Notes under the pieces: model-generated | Seen by the model: only the letters and a program-made list of their open reading frames with translations | Databases searched by the model: none | What the model was told of the DNA's origin: nothing | Position numbers and translations under genes: made by a program | Source of the DNA: Spizellomyces punctatus DAOM BR117 | Taxonomy: Eukaryota; Chytridiomycota; Chytridiomycetes; Spizellomycetales; Spizellomycetaceae | Length of the DNA: 64,000 nt | Direction of reading: 5' to 3' | NCBI RefSeq assembly: GCF_000182565.1 | Contig: NW_015971544.1 | Location: 308,622 to 372,621 of the forward strand | In this document: piece after piece, positions 2,395 to 47,952 of the stretch | Position numbering within the stretch: the first letter of the stretch is position 1 | Layout of the letters: the number at the start of each line of letters is the position of its first letter

Positions 2395-3945
2395 GAGGTA
2401 TAAAATCCACCTTCTTGGTTTGCAAGATGCTGCAGAGAGGTGACAGGTCGACGTTGGTCTTACCGCTGCAGGAAAGGACACAAATTCAGGTCCGTCCTTT
2501 TTAAAGGACCCCACATTCTTCCCCCGTGGAACGTTCTCTTTTCATGAACCAACCAAGCAACAACAAAATGCGGACCACAAGTACTGGCAGTATGGAAGCA
2601 TGCATGCAATTTTGAATAATAATGGGCATTTGATCGTCTTTTGATTTTCTTTTTTTTTGGTCAGCTCAAGCGGTTTACTTTTGACATTTCACGCCTTTTG
2701 CTGGCATTTAACGGCCTTTGCACGCAGGCACGTGGAGCTGATTTCGACCGCTTTTTTCCTGTGCGTGCATTCTTTATGTGCCTTTTTCTGTTGATTGCCT
2801 TTATTGCCATGTTTTTACCATCTTTTTTTAGGGGGATTTTCCAATTGGGAACTTTGGAAAACGGGAAGTTTACGTTAGGACTAATTAAAGAAATTGACGG
2901 ATGGCAAAATGAAAAAAAAATGGGCAACACTCACCCATGCCATATGTATGATAAGAAGCCGGATTTGTTGTGGACAGTTCTAATGTCCTTTTTGCAGTAG
3001 AGCACGTTCGTGTTATTGGACAACGTCAAACCAAGATGCTGCATTGGAGGTGTTTACGATCATTGTCTTGTTCAACGTATGGGATGTCAAGTGGTATATT
3101 TATGATTCCGGGAACTTGGGGAACCCCGATGCGGGAACTCCGATTGAAAAAAAAAAACCTCATTCTCGTATGGAGGGAGACTCTAGGCGCCAAGGGTTCA
3201 CCAGCGAATACCTTGTGCACTTGGCCTCTCTTGCACGTTTTCTTTGATGCACGTGCTGTTTTAACAACTAGCGATGCTCGGCTACATATTTAAACGACTG
3301 ATTCCTTTGGCCCTTTGGCTACTGCATTTCCCTGCAGCATTCCTTGACAAGATGCATTGTTGAAAATGTCTTTTCTTCCATGTTATCGTTGCAGTTGAAA
3401 AAGTTCCAGCACCCAATAAACACTTATCAATCACGCGAGTCGTTCTTGCAACCTCAAATCCCGCGTTGTAGGTGATCACACTGTGCACACAACCTAGTTG
3501 GCACCTCAGCGTCGAAACAGTCTGGTCCATCAACAGTGGATGTTCATTCCCCTCGTAGGTTGTCGACATGAGTGATGCAGCAGCGCACTAGGGTAAGCCC
3601 TCGGACCCTTTTTTCAGTCCGTGACCGTGCATCGGCTGCTGATAGCAGGCATGTCTGCATACACAATGGACAAAAAAAAACGACAAGATCTGTAGTGAGA
3701 CAAGTCGTTTGGAAATAAGGAACCAATTTCACACATCCAAGATTCAATTCTAGAATGCATTCGAGTGTATGTGATCGGAAATTGGCCGCAGAAATTTAAA
3801 GCTTTGGGTGACTGTGCCTTCATTCAAGTAAGCGGCCGTCACACGACAAAAGAAGCGTTGAACTTTGAGTTTTCCAGATGTGTGCTTTTTGTTCCTTGTT
3901 AACGTCTTTTACTTACAGTTTTCTTTCTTCTGTACATTGTTGACG
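2395..3945. other. 1.55-kb intergenic region, no supportable gene
   Basis: This is the shared upstream region of the divergent phosphatase (-) and SH3 (+) genes. It is AT-rich with many homopolymer A/T tracts. Open frames such as 2641-3000 (+) and 3282-3569 (-) are short, lack recognisable domains and have no clear splice partners. Confidence 0.5.
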
Positions 3946-6231
3946 ATGGTCGCAGTTGGCGTCGTCGTAGGAATCGTGCTGGGGGTGGTATGCATCTTCT
4001 TGTTCGCCTTTGTTGTTCATCAAATGAGAAAGGGCTCAAAAACGATACAAAGCGATACATTGGCGGATGAGACTACTAGAGGACACGATACAGCAGAGAA
4101 GGGGCTAGTGGAGCATGGTACCAATGCACTGCAAGTGCAAGACAGGTCGCTGGAAAATGCTCCACGGTCAACATCAGAGCAGACATTGTCTGAAAACGAA
4201 AGCAAGGGAAAAAGTGAGCTGGTATCACTGACCCTTCAAAAGTCAGTACAACCAGAACAGAGCATTCCACGCACGTCCATCGACCGCTCCCGCTCCCCTA
4301 TCAACCGCGTACGTACTCCTACCTCTCCCCTATCCCAAGTTACGAATGGCACAACGCTCGCTTCGGACGATGACCGAAGAAGTATCACAACAGCAGCCTC
4401 TTCAATAACAACTCGCAAAAATAGTACTGGAAGTGTGGTGCTGAGGGCGTCCGTCGACCTTCCACGACGGACAGCAAGCCTGGAAGCAAATGCGGGGAAG
4501 GGTGGGGCAGCGGCCATTGTTGCACCACGATTGTTGGGCACGCAGCTTGCACTTCATTGGTTCAGAAGGAAAGTGTCAGATGAAATTACTGTCAAGGCTG
4601 GGGTGAGTACTGTGCATTTTTATTCATGAAATGACTTTATCCTCACTCACGTTATGCATGTCCAGGACCCAATGTCCATTTACCAAACCTACCGTGACGG
4701 CTGGTGTCTCGGAATGAACTGGCGCTCTGGACAGTCTGGAGTATTTCCCCTTGCTGCAATTTCTCCTGAAGAAGCACAAAAGTTGGCGTCTGAATACCCA
4801 GAACCAGACGCACCACCCACTGACTCCCCTCTGCCGTCTATCACGTCACCATCTCCTGTACCGCCGCCCTCATCACCCGATCCGGTCACGTCTTCACTTT
4901 TGTACAGTTTGAATTTATCAGGGGCAGCGCCAAATGCCTCGCATTACTCCCTAACATCGTCTTCAGTTCCGTCTTCGACGCATTGGGGTGTGAGGGAGCT
5001 GAAACCAAGAGGGTTCCGTCGACCGAGCGTAGACAGAGAACGGGCGAGTAATTCTGGGCGGATATCAGCAAGACCTGGCAGACCAGATGTGGTGGCTGAC
5101 CCGGAAGTCTCTGACCTCGCCGCTGTTTACTTGGCTGCTATGGACAAGATGGATGATGAAAGCAATGTTCTCTCTCCTATTTACCGAGACTCGTACACCT
5201 CCCTCCAAACTCACGCTGAGCGCCTGGCCATAAGCCTCAACTCGGTTTCTCCCCATCCGGTTGCATCGTCCCTGCAGAAACAAGCCGGCAAGCTGGTTGA
5301 AGATATATCGGTTGCTTCTAAAGAGATTGCTTCGGAAATACCCAAGGATCCTAAACGGGCCTCCCGAATGTCTATTCCCGAAGCGAGAAAATCGGTTCTT
5401 CAATTGCATAATGAAGTGACCAAATTCTTTGATGAAGTCTTCACAGATACGGATAACGTACCGCCTGTGCCGCCGATTCCAGACTTTGTGCGTAGAGTGT
5501 CGGGAGATGCACAACAAGACGATGCCGAAGGAAGTGAGCTGCTGGCTACGGAAGATGAGGATGAGCCCAGGAGGAACTCATTCGTAAATGAATCCAATGA
5601 TGGGTCACCTTTATCTGTCGTGTCCGGTACCGGCCCATTACACCCGTCCTCTGAAGACATCTCTCAGAGTCCGACGCACCAGGCACAATCTGAAAAGGTG
5701 GCCATTCCTGAAGACGATGACGCGGACGATGATATCCCATTGCATGTTATTGCGGAGCAGGCTAATGCTGTGCAAAACAATCAGTCGACTCCTGAAATAG
5801 CAGATACCGCGGACAGAACCTCTGCAGAGGATGAGCACCCGAAAATGGTGGAAGTGGAAGAACACAAAGCTCTGGAAGCGCAAGTGAATGACGATAATGG
5901 TCAACATGATCAACAGAATGAAGATGCCGCATTGGTAGTCATCGATGCCGACACTCAATCCGAGGATCTAGAACAGCCGGCGGGAGCAGAGCCATTAGCT
6001 GTTATAACTGCTACGATGGCTGACACCGAACCAGAACAGTTAACGCAGCAGATTGATGACCAGGAATCCCAGATATTAGACAATGAGCCCCCCTCCATAG
6101 TCAAAGTGGAAACAGCCTCTCAGGAGCCGCAAAGTAAAATCGATGACCACCTGATTTCGGACACCACACACCAGAAAACCACCCCCGTGTTAGAAGAATC
6201 CATCCTTCAGGCGCCTACTGCGACTGCCTGA
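3946..6231 (+). CDS. Single-pass membrane protein with cytoplasmic SH3 domain
   Basis: Two exons (3946-4602, 4666-6231) give 740 residues. The N-terminus is one transmembrane segment (about residues 2-24, VAVGVVVGIVLGVV) followed at once by basic residues, suggesting a short outside tail and a cytoplasmic body. A Ser/Thr-rich linker leads to an SH3 domain at about residues 196-255. The usual ALYDY reads ALHWF, followed by DEITVKAGD, DGWCLGMNW and GVFPLAAI; the intron falls exactly between VKAG and DPMS. After a Pro-rich stretch (PPPSSPDP), a conserved-looking helical block occupies about residues 365-510, and the tail is very acidic. The arrangement recalls fungal cortical TM-SH3 proteins (Fus1-type), but identity is not established. 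ATG 3946 is the first in-frame ATG; an upstream exon cannot be excluded. Confidence 0.75.
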
Positions 6232-17653: not shown

Positions 17654-17885
17654 ATGGGTTCAGTCTTCTCTTGCCTGGCAGGAATCTGCAATGCTATTGC
17701 AAACGGCATCAACACAGTTTTCAGTGCCATCGGCAGTTGTCTAATGGTAAGAGTACCACAGTACTGTTGTTACTTCTTCAAGCTAAAGAGCTAATCTAAA
17801 ATATGCCTTTCAGGGCATTGTCAACGGTATCCGCAACTGTATCGCAGGGACGTTCGCAGCATGTGGAAGATGTTTACCGTGTTAG
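17654..17885 (+). CDS. 54-aa Cys-rich peptide, predicted N-myristoylated
   Basis: Two exons (17654-17746, 17814-17885) join in frame to 54 residues. The N-terminus MGSVFSC fits N-myristoylation at Gly2 with a palmitoylatable Cys7. The body repeats a hydrophobic I-x-N-G-I/A-I-G pattern (CNAIANGI, VFSAIGSC, GIVNGIRNC), and the end is Cys-rich (CGRCLPC); seven Cys in all. Such MG-SC, Ala/Ile/Gly/Asn-repeat micro-proteins are widespread in fungi but without established function; a membrane-surface role is inferred. It is followed after 4 nt by an 11-bp perfect hairpin and preceded by a TATA/CRE promoter, suggesting strong or regulated expression. Confidence 0.75.
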
Positions 17886-18144: not shown

Positions 18145-21100
18145 ATGGCAGCACGAGATCCATCGCCTTTTAACCACCATATTAGTCTGTTCAACGATGC
18201 ACGCATCGCTCCTCACACTACCTCCCCATCGGCCCGCCCCGTTGTGACTCCTCGCACACCTCCAAATCTTAGACCACCCCGTCTAACGCTTAGTCTGTCC
18301 CATCCCACAAGCCAGCAAATCCAGCCAACGCACGAAACAATCCAACAAACATGGGCAGCGTTCGATGCCATGTCGGAAGCACAGCGGAACATGCTATTGA
18401 AGGGATTGGTGGCAAGATGTGGTGGAAAGCAGGTTGAAGGTCTCTGTACTTGGTTGAACTTGCGGATGGTGGACGGGAGTGTAAGTTTTAACGCTGTCAT
18501 CCTTCTCCACAAAACGACAATTCTCACGATTGTGTGGATATAATAGAGCCCAACTGTTTACCCAGAAAATGTCTCCAGCAAATACGCAACTGCTGTACAC
18601 AAGTCCAAAAGGATGCCCGCCAAAGGAGCATCACTTGCCGCTGTAGCAGCTGAGAGTACGACCGCAAAGACATCGGTGCTGGACACCGCGAGGCAGCTGG
18701 CTGGGTTTACCGGATTGAAAAAAGAGGTGAAATTGCCGCAGATTGATCGAGGGTAGGTGTTATCCCCAGACGTGGCGTCGCCCTTTCTAGACCAAACCTT
18801 GTACATTTCATAGAAAGTCAAGAGTAGCTACTGAGGAAGATGACGATTCTTTCTTTCCATCCGCTCATGCATTATCCAACCCTACCCCGAACTTGGCGCA
18901 AGATGGGGGTTTTGCGAGCCACCGCCTTCACAGTGCAGACCGACCCCACAACATAAACATTAATCTCTACACTAAACTCCTCCACACCCATCAGGATGCC
19001 GATACCCTTGCAAAGCAACTTCTTCGCGCTGGTCCGGAACCGACACGAACCTTTATTCACTTCCTCTCCAACCGACTCCAAAAATCCCAACATCTGATCA
19101 CAAGCATCACCGAAATCGCCATGGAGCCCGATACAGAAAAGGCCATGAACGATCTTCTCAACCATCTGCTGAATACAGTCGACGCCAGATATGCGACAGT
19201 CTACCTCCTTGAAGACACAATACCAGAAACGACCGTGGTCCGCGCTAGTAATTGGGCTCAAGTTGGCAACAGCGTCTCGCTCCAGAATATCTTCAATGGC
19301 CCTACACTCCAGAAACTCGGACAACCCAGCAATGCGTACAATGTAAAAACATCGGAACAGTATACCGACGATATTCAAGATGCGTACGCTTCGGTTAATC
19401 CAGACTGCATCCTTTCAGCACCAATCCTGGACAATGAAGGTCGATTCGCGGGAATATTGGAGCTTATCAACAAGACCACTCCAACACCTTTTTTTGAAGC
19501 TGAGGACGAAAGTGTAGTCAAACTTGTCGCAAGCCTGTGGACAGTGCTGATGAAACGGTCTCAAATATTGTTGGAGCAGACGCAGCAAACGGCGGATATT
19601 AGGGCTTTCCTAAATACCGCTTCAGTGATGACTTCTGAAATCGACTTGGGGGGTGCGTATAGACATCATAATTTTGTTTCTCACAAAAACCTATACTCAT
19701 TCCTCTGTTGTGGGTTAGCACAGACTTGATCAAAGTTATCATGCAAACATCTCAAGAGCTCCTCAAAGCCGAGCGATGTTCCCTGTTTATGGTGGACAAA
19801 GAGAAGCAAGAATTGTGGACTACCGTTGCGCAAGGAACGGAGGAGATTCGCATACCCATCAACAAAGGGATTGCCGGTGAGCACATGGCACGATCATAAA
19901 AAACCTGTCCTCAGGTATCTGATTAATCTGCAAATTTTGGTTGACCGTAGGGCATGTCGCCATGACCGGTACACTGCTCAACATCCCAAATGGTACGGTA
20001 AGGTGTCGTTGACCGGGCTGCACAATGAACTAACCGCCTGAGTGTTCATCCAGCTTACAAGGATCACCGCTTCAATCGCTCCGTCGATCTCAAAACCGGA
20101 TACCGCACCCGTAATATTCTCTGTATGCCCATGAAAAACAGTTCGGGGAATGTCATCGGTGTTACGCAAATCATTAACAAGTTGCCCGAATCGGCGGTGT
20201 TTAGTCGGGAGGATGAAATGCTAGGAATGAGTTTTGCCGGATTAGGTATGTGATCTCGTGCAGTCTCTTTTCAAAGTAATGCATTCTCTAATATGAATAT
20301 AACTCAGCTGGTGGGATGCTCGAAAAGTCTCTCCAATTCAAGGCCCTTCAAATCCAGCTCCAGAGCACCACAGCTGAGCGAGACTTGGTCAGTACCGCTT
20401 TTCAAAATACCCCCCACATCATCCTGGCTCTCGACCACGCTGGCAGACTGGTACGACTTTATCCAATCCGCAACTAGAGGGTTTTATGCTAACTTGTATG
20501 CTCCAGTTAACCGTCAATGATGCAGTGCCGTTGGGACTTCCTGATCTATCCCTCCTAAGACTTACCACCTACGACACCTGGCTTTCCCCAAATGACGTAC
20601 TCATATCTGACATCAAAGCCACGTATGAAACCAATCGTCCAGCGTATGCGGAGGGATATGTCTTTCGTACTGAGGATGGCGCGAACGTGGATGTGAATTA
20701 TGCTGTGGTAAAGATGGAAAGCGGGCTTATCATAGATGTGGAGGTTGTCGGGGACGATAGGAGACTTGCAGCAGATCTGGGAAGGTAGAGAGAAGGATTT
20801 TCCCTGGCCTTGCCGTTAACAGCTCACAAACCTCCTTCCTCCAGATATATGCATCTGGGGCTGGTGCGGGAGGTCCAAGGTGACGACGCATCGCTGCACG
20901 GGAAGAAAAGTCAGATGAGCGTGCTGGTTGCAGAGCTGAGAGAGTGTATGTAGCGGATAGTGGTTTGAAGTCATTTTTCCCGGTTGTTCATCATCTGTAC
21001 CGAACCTGCTAGTTGCATCCATTACCAACAACTTCCCACCATCCTCCGTGATTACATTGCTGAACGAGCACCACTCATCGATCTACGCCTCCATTTCATC

Positions 21101-21965
21101 GGAGAACGGTACTCGCCGGCGTCCAATTCCAGTCTCGCAACTATTACTAACCACATTACACATCTCACAGGCCTCCTTCAAACTCAAACTGGTCCCACCA
21201 CCCTCTCACTATTTGGTCTACCATACTGTTCACCCACAGATGCCGTAAGATGTGTTTCCTGTGCTTTAAAAATCAAAGACTCTATCTTGGAACGCAATGA
21301 AAAAAGCACAGTTAAAATGGAGGTTGGAATTGGGATTGCGACGGGGGATATGGTGTGGGGCCTGGTAGGACATCCGAAGCGAAGGGATGTTGTGGGTGTT
21401 GGCGGTCAGTTGACTCTTTGCGATATGCTCTCGGATATCCACATACTAACTACTGCCTTCTTGCGATAGATCCTCTCCATCTTTCAACTCATCTCCGCAC
21501 CATCATAAAAACTTACACGTCCAAAACATCCATCCTCATCTGCGAATCGACAAAGGAGGCCGTCAAAGAGCATTTTCATCTTCGTGAACTGGACGCTATA
21601 TCATGGGGTGATAAGCCTGATACCCCGGCATTGGTGATTTACGAGGTTCTACATCCCTCCACAATAGAGTTGGATAAGAATGTTATGACCGTAAGTATTA
21701 ACCCATTTTGTGCAGCAAACTACAATCCATCGCTCATTCGGATATCTCTCCCCTTGTTTTTCAACAGTCACTCATATGCTACGAACTAGGACTTTCTGAT
21801 TATCGCTCAAGAAATTTCGGAACTGCTTTGAATCATTTTCGAAAGGCGGTTCAAATGACCCAAGATGAGCCATCTAAAACAATGGTGGCGAGATGTCGAC
21901 AGGTGCTGGATGGACGGGTCGTTGTACCGCAGGAATGGGATAGTGTATGGAGGTGGGATGGATGA
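18145..21965 (+). CDS. GAF-GAF-PAS-class III nucleotide-cyclase homology protein, catalysis probably lost
   Basis: Twelve exons (18145-18480, 18547-18752, 18814-19652, 19724-19876, 19951-19992, 20054-20245, 20308-20450, 20507-20784, 20845-20943, 21013-21404, 21470-21690, 21768-21965) give 1,032 residues. After a Pro-rich N-terminus come GAF-A (about 275-440) and GAF-B (about 455-600). GAF-B has the cyclic-nucleotide type block [13 protein letters not shown] and an NK...F...DE motif. A PAS domain (about 610-730) and a class III cyclase homology domain (about 748-965) follow. This order matches cyanobacterial CyaB1-type adenylyl cyclases. In the catalytic domain the first metal Asp (FADI) reads VAEL, and the second (GDAVMAVFG) reads PTTLSLFG. 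The transition-state Asn and Arg (VNLAARL) read LHLSTHL. It is therefore probably a ligand-sensing pseudo-cyclase or a regulatory partner. The 20943/21013 junction uses a weak GTGTAT donor. Confidence 0.85.
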
Positions 21966-22028: not shown

Positions 22029-25000
22029 CTATTCATCTACTTCTTGACCAGCAATCGTTTCCATTTCCAACTTTGCCTCGAATCGAGAATGATGTAGAAT
22101 TTCCTAAATATGACAAAAAAGCGTTAGCAGCTTGCACAGTTGAGAAACTGTTGTCAGTATTTACCTTGACACGCTCCCTCAAGACCTGCTTCCGAAACTC
22201 CCTCCAGCGCTGTTCTTTCTGCTCCGCTACAAACTCTTTCCACAATCGTAGACATCGCCTTGGTAGGATTCGCTTCATTAGCTGATCAGCTTTCGCATTG
22301 AGAGCACGTTCGTGTGCTTCGCGGGTTTGGCTGGTGGTCAAAGCTTTACGTCGCCAGGTCTGAAACGTGCTGAGGATGACATGGTGCTTATGGTGTTTGC
22401 AGGCATCTGAAGTGTGGCATTTGTGCGTTTGATATGCCTTCCGTACATTGGGACCAAGTGAAGCGGATTCGTAAGGGATTGCAAAATATATGGAATTCTT
22501 AACCCTCAGGTCTCACCTCTTTCCATCGATCCCATCCTGATTTTACAGCTCTCTGATCCCACAGTTTTGATGCCATAATCTCCCTCTCTTCCCATCGTTC
22601 TCTGAACCTTTGTATCCACCCTTTGAACAAACAGCGAACCCAAAATCCAAGAGATGCTTCCTCGTTCCTCCGAACCGCACCCACAAAAGTCTTCAAACAT
22701 TTCAACCCCTTCCTCAACAGGCGTTTCCTGCTAAACGTGCACGCAAGAGCATTTACACGCCGTTGCTCGGCAAGCTGCTCCGCTAAGGCTTTCTCGGCTG
22801 CTTTACGGGACTCGATGAGAATACGACGCTCTTCTGCTTCTTGGAGAGCTTTTGCCTCTGCTTCTGCTGCCTTCTTGGCCTATTAGATGGACGGAATGAG
22901 ACTTTGGCGGGCAATGAATTCACTGATTGGTTACACGGACCTCCAGCGCTTCCTGACGCTCTTTGCGACGCTGTTCAAGCTGTTGGCGACGGTCTCTACG
23001 TTCTGCATCTCTCTTTTCCATTTCTGAGGGTTGGCATGACGCAATGTGAAACGGGGCTATTTAAATATGGAAATGAACATCCATACTAAAGCCTGCCTTA
23101 CCTGCAATCCACTTTTGGTCTTGTGCAGTTCGAATACGCCTGGGTTTCTGGGGCGATGGTGCCTTGCGGCGGATTGTCGACTGTTTTGGCGAATCGTTGA
23201 GCGTTGATGCGCAAGCAACTTTATTCTCTTCTGTTGGTGCCGGAGTTGGAGCCTTGGGTTCTTCTACATTTGTCGCTGGACCCTTGTTCACATCCTCCCC
23301 ATCTATAATGGCATTCATGTCTTTGCTGTCATCATTGGACAAGCTCTCCCCACTCGTACTTGCATCCAATCTCTCCAAAACCTTGCCCACTCTTCTCTCC
23401 TCAATCTCTGCCTCAACTCTCTGTCGTCGTTCCAGGCGCTCCAAGGCCTCTTTCATGCGCTTGGCCCGCTCTTCGTGTTGGCGACGGAGGCGTTTAGCTT
23501 CACCTGTCACAAAAGGAGAAGGAAATGGGCAGAGTTAATCTCGTTTTTGCATGGGTAGTTCACATAAGCAGTAACGTACGTTGAAGTCTCGTCCATCCCA
23601 GCCATGCGAGCACTACTTTTGAAAGTATTGTCGATCTCTGAAAGCGGACGGCCTTCAACTGGTTTTCATGGGATTTTTGGAGGGCTTCTTGAAGCGCCTG
23701 GGCTTCTCTAATCAAAAATGTTGTCACTACGTGCAATCATACTGCTTGCTGCATACCACGAGACGCTCATAAAAGATAGCATACCGTTTGGCTATACAAG
23801 ACTGCTTCAGTTTCCGCCAGGTCGCGAACGACCGATTCAAATGTCGCCAAGTGGTAATGACCTATAGATGTGTATTCAGCAAAGTGCCATCCAGAATCTG
23901 AAAGCTATGGACTGGTACTGACCTGAAACTGCTGCACTTGTTTTCGATATGTGGTGACAAGAGCACACCAGCTTGAGAAATGCACCTACCAATAAAGTCA
24001 GCAAACCTAATCACAGTCCAGAGCTCAAATTTCTCGCACTTTGAGGGCTTTCAACCGACGAACAGAAAATAGCTCGTCAGCTCTGGCGCGGGATTGAGCC
24101 AGTTTTCGCTCGATTATCTCATTCCGCCGTTTTTCGTCTTCTTTTTGAGACTCTGTCTTGAGCTGAGCTTCACTGTCATTCAAGTCCGTCTTTTCAACTT
24201 TCACCTTTCCTGTTTCAACATCGGAGATCGTCGGTACGTCAGCCGTGGTGCGCATTTTCGCATACTCTTCGTCACTAGTTAAAATTAAATGGACAGTTTG
24301 CCAAATAACAATTCAGTATAGACTCACACCACCAGCTCGCGTGCTCGCTCAAAATCCTCATTTCGCGGTCCATATGGCTTATCAGAACGCTTCCTCCCCA
24401 TATCTTCGTCGAGCGCCGCTCGTGCCGCTCGAAGGGCAATGTCCATTTTCCATTGATCAATCTTGGAATGTTTTGGTCTTGGGTGACCCAGATACTAATA
24501 AGATACTTTATTCTATCTAATTTACAGACATTTGTCGGACGCTCACCTGGCTCTCTCAACATGTTTCTGTCGCAAGGAAGATAGCAATTTTTGCTGTTTG
24601 CTCTCTATTTGGCGCTCAAGGGCTTGTATGCGATGTTTATGATGTTGTTCCCGGCGCTCGCGCGCGAGAGCATGACGAGTTTGAGTTTCTGAATGGCGTG
24701 AATACGGGCTGATGGAACCTTGGTGGGTGCGTGAGTATAGAGCGCTTCCCTTTATGCATCAAGGTTGACAGAATGTTATTTTCAACATACGGTAACCCCT
24801 TCCGCATAAACAGGCGCCTACCCTGATATCTCCGTATCCCACAACCTCCTCAACCACCTCCCTGACAGCCTTCCGATCACTCGCTCCACATAGTTTTTCT
24901 TCCAAAGACATAAAGGCACCCAAGTTTAGATTCAGCTTTATGCGATTAGAGGCGTCGTCGGAAGGCTCGGGTGGTGCCGGATTTGACACCCACTGCGTTA

Positions 25001-42903: not shown

Positions 42904-43204
42904 CGTCTGCTTATTAACAAACTGATTCCGATTTTTGGTTTAGTGAATATGTTTGATCATCACTGTACGTAGGTATCGATTATAGCGGGCATATAAACCG
43001 ATTGTTACCAGTATCTCTAGAATATAAACATTCTCATCAGATACAGTTCATACCAGGATAGATTCGCAACTTCTATTATATAACTTGCAGCACATATCTA
43101 GAATGCTACGTCAACCATCCGCTCATCAAGAAAGGATAGTACAGATTCTCCTGAACATGAGTTATATCTCTTGTGTATTTTGTGCTACGAGACGTAAAAG
43201 CGAA
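42904..43204. other. Spacer between GST and tRNA-Lys
   Basis: AT-rich sequence of about 300 bp. It is likely the GST 3' UTR and tRNA 5' flank; nothing else is seen. Confidence 0.4.
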
Positions 43205-43277
43205 GCCCGGTTAGCTCAATCGGCAGAGCGTGAGGCTCTTAACCTCAAGGTTGCGGGTTCGACCCCCGCATCGGGCT
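43205..43277 (+). tRNA. tRNA-Lys (anticodon CTT)
   Basis: 73 nt folding as a cloverleaf. The acceptor stem pairs GCCCGGT with ATCGGGC (one G-T pair) and the D-arm is AGCTCAATCGGCAGAGCG-like. The anticodon loop CTCTTAA reads CTT, and the T-arm GGGTTCGACCCC is the B box. The discriminator base is T. No intron. A run of ten T at 43299-43308 follows. Confidence 0.95.
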
Positions 43278-43298
43278 GTAGATAAGTAGAACTGGTGA

Positions 43299-47879: not shown

Positions 47880-47952
47880 AGCCCGATGCGGGGGTCGAAC
47901 CCGCAACCTTGAGGTTAAGAGCCTCACGCTCTACCGATTGAGCTAACCGGGC
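47880..47952 (-). tRNA. tRNA-Lys (anticodon CTT), second copy
   Basis: On the minus strand the sequence is identical to the 43205-43277 gene except for one D-loop base (GGTAGAG instead of GGCAGAG). The discriminator is T. Flanks are unrelated to the first copy. Six A at 47855-47860 give a short T-run terminator on this strand. Confidence 0.94.

Follow-up and report, generated by a model that had tools for sequence, protein, structure and literature searches.

Results

The window analysed here, a stretch of 64,000 nucleotides (nt) from Spizellomyces punctatus DAOM BR117 (contig NW_015971544.1, positions 308,622 to 372,621), lies on contig C8 of the genome that was searched (24.0 Mb, 29 contigs). 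Positions 18145..21965 of the window hold, on the forward strand, a gene for a protein with two GAF domains, a domain at the position of a PAS domain and a class III cyclase homology domain (CHD); all coordinates of this gene refer to that strand. A splice model that uses GT-AG borders and leaves a single open frame divides the gene into 13 exons (18145-18480, 18547-18752, 18814-19652, 19724-19876, 19951-19992, 20054-20245, 20308-20450, 20507-20784, 20845-20945, 21013-21108, 21171-21404, 21470-21690 and 21768-21965), which, with the stop codon included, encode 1012 amino acids. The 12 introns, all GT-AG, measure 56-77 nt each, and the spliced frame contains neither a frameshift nor a stop. The independently annotated orthologue P0001 from Spizellomyces 'palustris' is also 1012 amino acids long and shares 97% identity with the window protein across the searched residues 280-1012. 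Judged by its single-frame model and this equal-length orthologue, the gene is real, and the extent assigned to it by an earlier sequence-only reading was borne out. That reading had doubted the splice junction 20943/21013; the splice model places it at 20945|21013, keeping the downstream side and moving the upstream one. Within the CHD, a 62-nt intron (21109-21170) carries CTAAC 24 nt upstream of its end. The CHD frame meets stops when this intron stays in and is open once it is removed, and P0001 shows the spliced reading.

The CHD occupies residues 749-936 (20900..21657, spanning three introns). Pfam Guanylate_cyc matched residues 751-867 with 41.4 bits (cut-off 21.9), and the spliced domain aligned with crystallised class III cyclases, residues 751-842 without a gap against Cya2 (2w01). 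Class III cyclases have six catalytic positions with well-established roles, and single-chain members of the class normally carry the complete set. When these positions were placed against 2w01, CyaC (1wc0) and intact relatives, every one of them was found to be altered in the window protein. The first metal-binding Asp is Glu760 (20933..20935, in VAEL) and the second is Pro804 (21194..21196, in PTTLSLFG); the base-contacting Lys is Thr800 (21182..21184), and Val870 (21392..21394) takes the place of the Thr or Ser that intact relatives have at the second base contact. The transition-state Asn and Arg are replaced by His877 (21478..21480) and His881 (21490..21492), both in LHLSTHL. The changes in the three motifs had already been proposed from the sequence and stand after alignment; Thr800 and Val870 are added to them. 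Removal of the intron 21109-21170 brings back none of the residues. Moreover, when 20785..21760 was scanned by pattern in all three forward frames, canonical motifs for the metal, Lys or Asn/Arg positions were absent, which speaks against an alternative splice form that would restore the residues. Sequencing error was likewise ruled out as the cause, because P0001, which comes from a separate assembly, carries identical residues.

Upstream of the CHD lies GAF-B (residues 456-600, 19637..20339, spanning four introns), a predicted cyclic-nucleotide site. Pfam GAF matched its residues 458-591, and matches in the PDB included 1ykd, 4mcw and 1mc0; the best by sequence were GAF domains of CyaB2 (1ykd, the top match), an HD-GYP protein, PDE2A and PDE5. 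Light or redox sensing had been offered as an alternative input, and no result pointed to it, no test having been aimed at it; the nearest GAF domains in the PDB are those just named. GAF-A (residues 288-415, 19133..19516) was matched by Pfam GAF in two stretches and by fold to the GAF tandems of PDE2A, CyaB2 and PDE5A. It retains NKFDE-type residues, of which N400, K401 and D412 are nearly invariant and F408 is invariant; by eye, its sequence lacks a NIPxAYxDxRFN-like block. Downstream of the CHD is a conserved, TPR-like C-terminal tail (residues 942-1012, 21673..21962, spanning one intron), in which TPR_2 was matched below its cut-off (E 0.03); that family was matched at E <= 1 in 19 of the 25 proteins scanned. 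The domain at the PAS position (residues 620-722, 20397..20761, spanning one intron) evolves fast. No Pfam PAS family reached E <= 1 there in the window protein, and the commonest PAS family matched 9 of the 25 proteins scanned. Only the structure predicted for P0001 shows an alpha/beta domain at this position, with predicted strands and helices over residues 627-717. Pfam thus upholds the GAF-GAF-...-cyclase part of the CyaB1-like order read from the sequence, and gives the PAS part no match. Rhodopsin was absent from the six Pfam families that reached E <= 1 in the window protein, and a scan with NCBIfam gave sub-cut-off matches only.

The history of the protein was examined in a tree built on the stretch from GAF to PAS in 56 rows, with the CHD excluded and neither CyaB1 nor CyaB2 among the rows. 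Together with P0001-P0018, the window protein forms clade B (support 100/100), whose rows are all chytrid, judging by sequence names. Clade B, which has three intact members, groups with intact GAF-GAF-PAS-CHD proteins and adjoins the 27 rows labelled A, which stand apart from it. Because the bacterial P0149 sits among the A rows and P0229 was left without a resolved place, we take clade A to mean the intact relatives around the S. punctatus paralogue SPPG_00950. The gene model of P0018 (Gaertneriomyces) stops ahead of the CHD, which leaves 18 of the 19 clade-B rows with this domain. Compared at the six positions across chytrids, these 18 are graded. All positions are kept in three of them (P0003 from Blyttiomyces JEL0837, P0006 from Rhizophlyctis and P0009 from Phlyctochytrium bullatum). 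Asn alone is lost, as far as can be read, in two (P0005 and P0010, the model of P0010 being gapped over the second base-contact column), and a metal-binding Asp is lost in 13, namely the first Asp together with Arg in P0004 and both Asp residues in the other 12. In Entophlyctis and Polyrhizophydium, the orthologues still have both Asp residues along with Lys and Arg. Wherever the A and bacterial rows cover these positions they are intact, with one exception, the bacterial P0021, in which Asp replaces Asn; some of the positions fall in gaps in P0125, P0134 and P0136.

On a tree of 26 rows, the degenerate state requires four changes. Approximately unbiased (AU) tests, for which the groups were named after the residues had been seen, rejected a single ancient loss: forcing all 15 degenerate rows together gave p 1.46e-5, and p 0.00123 when Zopfochytrium was left out. 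We speak of several losses and not of an exact number, because the starred branches by themselves force just two changes and the tree does not resolve the deep splits within clade B. Nine CHD-bearing rows, which we assign to the Spizellomycetales, form a group of ten with P0018 (support 100/99). All nine lack both metal-binding Asp residues. Eight of them share Glu at the first metal position, which fits a single early loss there followed by drift; the second metal position varies among P, A, S, T and L.

Within clade B, GAF-B and the tail were held while the CHD diverged. GAF-B columns 510, 511, 527, 537, 540, 544 and 564, which we presume, on the model of PDE2A, to touch the ligand, are identical in 19 of 19 clade-B rows, as are the NKFDE residues; column 480 varies (Ser in 13 rows, Ala in 3, Thr in 3). 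In the tail, 15 of 64 columns are invariant among the 13 degenerate rows, compared with 2 of 112 at the PAS position. Between S. punctatus and Phlyctochytrium arcticum, identity in clade A is 90.3% for GAF-B, 89.4% for the CHD and 61.3% for the tail; in clade B the corresponding values are 76.4%, 37.6% and 76.6%. Between the two Spizellomyces proteins of clade B, changes number 1 in 145 positions of GAF-B, 8 in 188 of the CHD and 1 in 76 of the tail. The hydrophobic pattern of the CHD, as read from the aligned sequences, is kept but blurred, since core cells are hydrophobic in 573 of 691 cases in the 13 degenerate rows (1953 of 1964 in intact references) and surface-type columns in 247 of 1110 (183 of 3237). 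The catalytic columns kept 5 of 65 cells compared with 325 of 673 in other conserved columns; because the 13 rows were picked for lost metal-binding Asp residues, this contrast is biased and was not used as evidence.

Near the N terminus, residues 62-105 (18328..18459) form a short helical motif that has no assigned family and is conserved in all 16 of the 19 clade-B rows that reach it. The model of P0001 predicts helices at residues 63-73, 78-91 and 94-103, and a profile search of the PDB with the motif gave no match below E 0.41. It is possibly a dimerisation element, and it may resemble the D-domains of F-box proteins. On the same strand, just upstream of the gene, positions 17654-17885 hold a two-exon short frame of about 54 amino acids, rich in Cys, Gly and Ala by eye. 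Directly downstream, overlapping open frames on the minus strand (22033-22974) have abundant charged residues and Ala and look coiled-coil-like by eye. Farther along, the window contains two tRNA-Lys genes on opposite strands, both with anticodon ctt (43204-43278 on the plus strand and 47880-47952 on the minus strand).

Other cyclic-nucleotide genes were sought in the same genome. PF00211, used as a profile, matched at exon level 14 times across seven contigs, which is a lower bound. SPPG_00950 (contig C2, G000:C2:224500-230500, minus strand), a GAF-GAF-PAS-CHD paralogue with the metal-binding Asp residues, Lys, Asn and Arg present, was missing from these matches, probably because its CHD is split across short exons, so six-frame counts of cyclases are too low in this genome. 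We rebuilt this gene from upstream of GAF-A onward, and within the part that was searched it agrees with its annotated protein, P0112, at 99% identity. A gene on contig C26 (G000:C26:63000-71000, roughly 2800-4940) encodes a soluble cyclase whose metal, Lys, Asn and Arg motifs are intact in translated matches; it looks like FHA-GAF-CHD, with the FHA domain read by eye from the N terminus. Cyclase motifs are also intact in the translated matches of a gene on contig C1. PDEase_I and cNMP_binding gave 17 and 25 exon-level matches in the genome, a few of the latter below cut-off, indicating that the remaining cyclic-nucleotide system is present.

Discussion

A nucleotide pocket and a tail that are held, next to a CHD that is predicted to be folded yet is chemically empty in several lineages, are best explained by a receptor without catalysis. 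We would put at even chances that the window protein is a soluble receptor for cyclic nucleotides, non-catalytic and probably dimeric, that descends from a GAF-GAF-PAS cyclase. Its GAF-B would bind cyclic AMP (cAMP) or cyclic GMP (cGMP), as CyaB2 or PDE2A do, and the ligand-induced change would be relayed through helical linkers and the PAS position to the CHD. The CHD would still fold and probably still dimerise, but could neither hold two metal ions nor position a substrate. Its output would be a conformational change, with no product molecule, read by a binding partner that docks on the CHD and the TPR-like tail. The pseudo-cyclase with a cyclic-nucleotide-type GAF-B that had been put forward from the letters of the window is supported by sequence, tree and predicted fold.

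Several observations weigh against a receptor in which the CHD still has work to do. The identity of the clade-B CHD to Phlyctochytrium arcticum is close to that of the PAS position (36.7%), as expected of domain decay. The CHD of P0011 has long insertions, and those of P0007, P0012-P0014 and P0017 have insertions and deletions, to which annotation errors may contribute. Besides Glu760, four derived CHD residues are near-fixed in the Spizellomycetales (Thr802, Ile830, Pro875 and Ala916), so few that they give no evident sign of a newly conserved docking surface. The predicted structure is that of P0001, with a predicted template-modelling score (pTM) of 0.43, and its 25-sequence alignment includes intact cyclases. 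The main rival, and a serious one, is that the CHD is a relic, weakly constrained and on its way to loss, while GAF-B and the tail do the work. Fast divergence of the CHD and the PAS position beside a held GAF-B and tail, the long insertions or deletions in six orthologues, the varied residues at the second metal position and the early end of the Gaertneriomyces model are all what a relic would produce. That early end, however, falls at an intron position that the window gene has too, and the annotation may simply have been cut short there. The window gene has neither frameshift nor stop, 181 of its 188 CHD positions align to Phlyctochytrium arcticum, and the hydrophobic core is largely kept; moreover, because the conserved tail lies 3' of the CHD, the domain must at least be read through. 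On balance, we consider a mere relic unlikely.

Regulation of an active cyclase partner, as the sequence-only reading had suggested, is possible but weakened. In class III dimers, one chain supplies a given site with both metal-binding Asp residues, and the partner chain supplies Lys, Asn and Arg. Since the window protein has neither set, no site of a mixed dimer would be complete, and its effect on a partner could only be inhibitory: it would poison SPPG_00950, or another cyclase, by forming a heterodimer, with the GAF-B ligand setting the strength. An intact paralogue of the same domain order does exist in the genome, and clades A and B occur together in eight species (S. punctatus, S. palustris, Phlyctochytrium arcticum, Phlyctochytrium bullatum, Blyttiomyces JEL0837, Zopfochytrium, Polyrhizophydium and Polychytrium). 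The predicted CHD fold would suit such a dimer, and heterodimeric cyclases exist in chytrids, as RGC1/2 with NeoR (PMC7655827). However, P0001 and P0112 share only 32% identity, and no clade-A protein was found among the best 120 of 3800 matches for Thoreauomyces, Fimicolochytrium, Geranomyces, Powellomyces, Gaertneriomyces or Rhizophlyctis, all of which carry clade B; these matches extended as far as bacterial proteins, and some of the absences could stem from gene models that are missing or split. An inhibitory partner seems to us a shade less probable than a relic. Far less probable than either is a cyclase that remains active through unusual residues or as a half complementing another cyclase. 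Glu could in principle bind metal, and the Entophlyctis and Polyrhizophydium orthologues retain much of the set, but the second metal position is Pro in the window protein, Lys, Asn and Arg are gone as well, and the forward-frame scan gave no canonical motif. A complementing half of the C1/C2 or soluble guanylyl cyclase type would carry one complete half, and in the window protein both are altered.

If the non-catalytic receptor is what the gene encodes, it would be a cyclic-nucleotide effector distinct from kinases and channels with cNMP-binding domains. The wider proposition, that chytrids repeatedly turned a self-sensing cyclase into such a receptor, with GAF-B keeping its ligand and the enzyme domain becoming a folded signalling module, is tentative, and we hold it with less assurance than the receptor itself. 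Living species present a graded series, in which the set is intact, Asn is lost, one Asp and Arg are lost, or everything is lost. Because Spizellomycetales that lack both Asp residues stand beside relatives of the same clade that retain the full set, the change from enzyme to receptor would be traceable stepwise and testable by comparing orthologues. The result is relevant as well to how S. punctatus signals with cyclic nucleotides, a species in which PMC9616733 reports the BeCNG1 channel as the one component of the CyclOp system that was found. Degenerate cyclase halves are an already known kind, as in the transmembrane adenylyl cyclases (tmAC) treated in PMC8815786. New to our knowledge are a single-chain soluble GAF-GAF-PAS-CHD protein without either catalytic half and the graded series of orthologues; searches of open-access papers, judged by titles, opening lines of abstracts and selected passages, showed no description of the family.

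Among known systems, Anabaena CyaB1 and CyaB2 share with the window protein the tandem GAF domains, a linker domain, a C-terminal CHD and the NKFDE residues in GAF-B; they differ from it in that the window protein has all six catalytic positions altered, a long N-terminal extension and a TPR-like tail. According to PMC4411481, the GAF tandem of CyaB2 binds cAMP, its cyclase is activated, and the ligand is contacted by Arg291, Thr293, Ile308, Asp356 and Asn359. In an alignment with 1ykd, counted by hand, these correspond to Arg478, Ser480, Val495, Asp537 and Thr540. With Val495 for Ile308 and Thr540 for Asn359, the pocket is similar and not identical, so cAMP and cGMP cannot be told apart as ligands. 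SPPG_00950 has the same domain order and a similar tail (the identity to P0001 given above extends over 664 columns), but falls outside clade B (100/100) and has its catalytic residues. The intact orthologues P0003, P0006 and P0009 belong to the same clade in the GAF-to-PAS tree (100/100), but have kept theirs.

The rhodopsin-guanylyl cyclases of the NeoR/RGC type are likewise chytrid class III cyclase paralogues, and their RGC1/2-NeoR heterodimers have been shown (PMC7655827); RGC1 and RGC2 retain the residues required for cyclisation, according to the review PMC8815786. Unlike the window protein, in which no rhodopsin family was matched, they are membrane rhodopsins. In the C1/C2 pair of mammalian membrane adenylyl cyclases, one half retains what the other lost. 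The likeness lies in the cyclase core, where the mammalian enzymes have one site that has degenerated and is not catalytic (PMC8815786); in contrast to that pair, the window protein lacks the two halves of the catalytic set within one chain.
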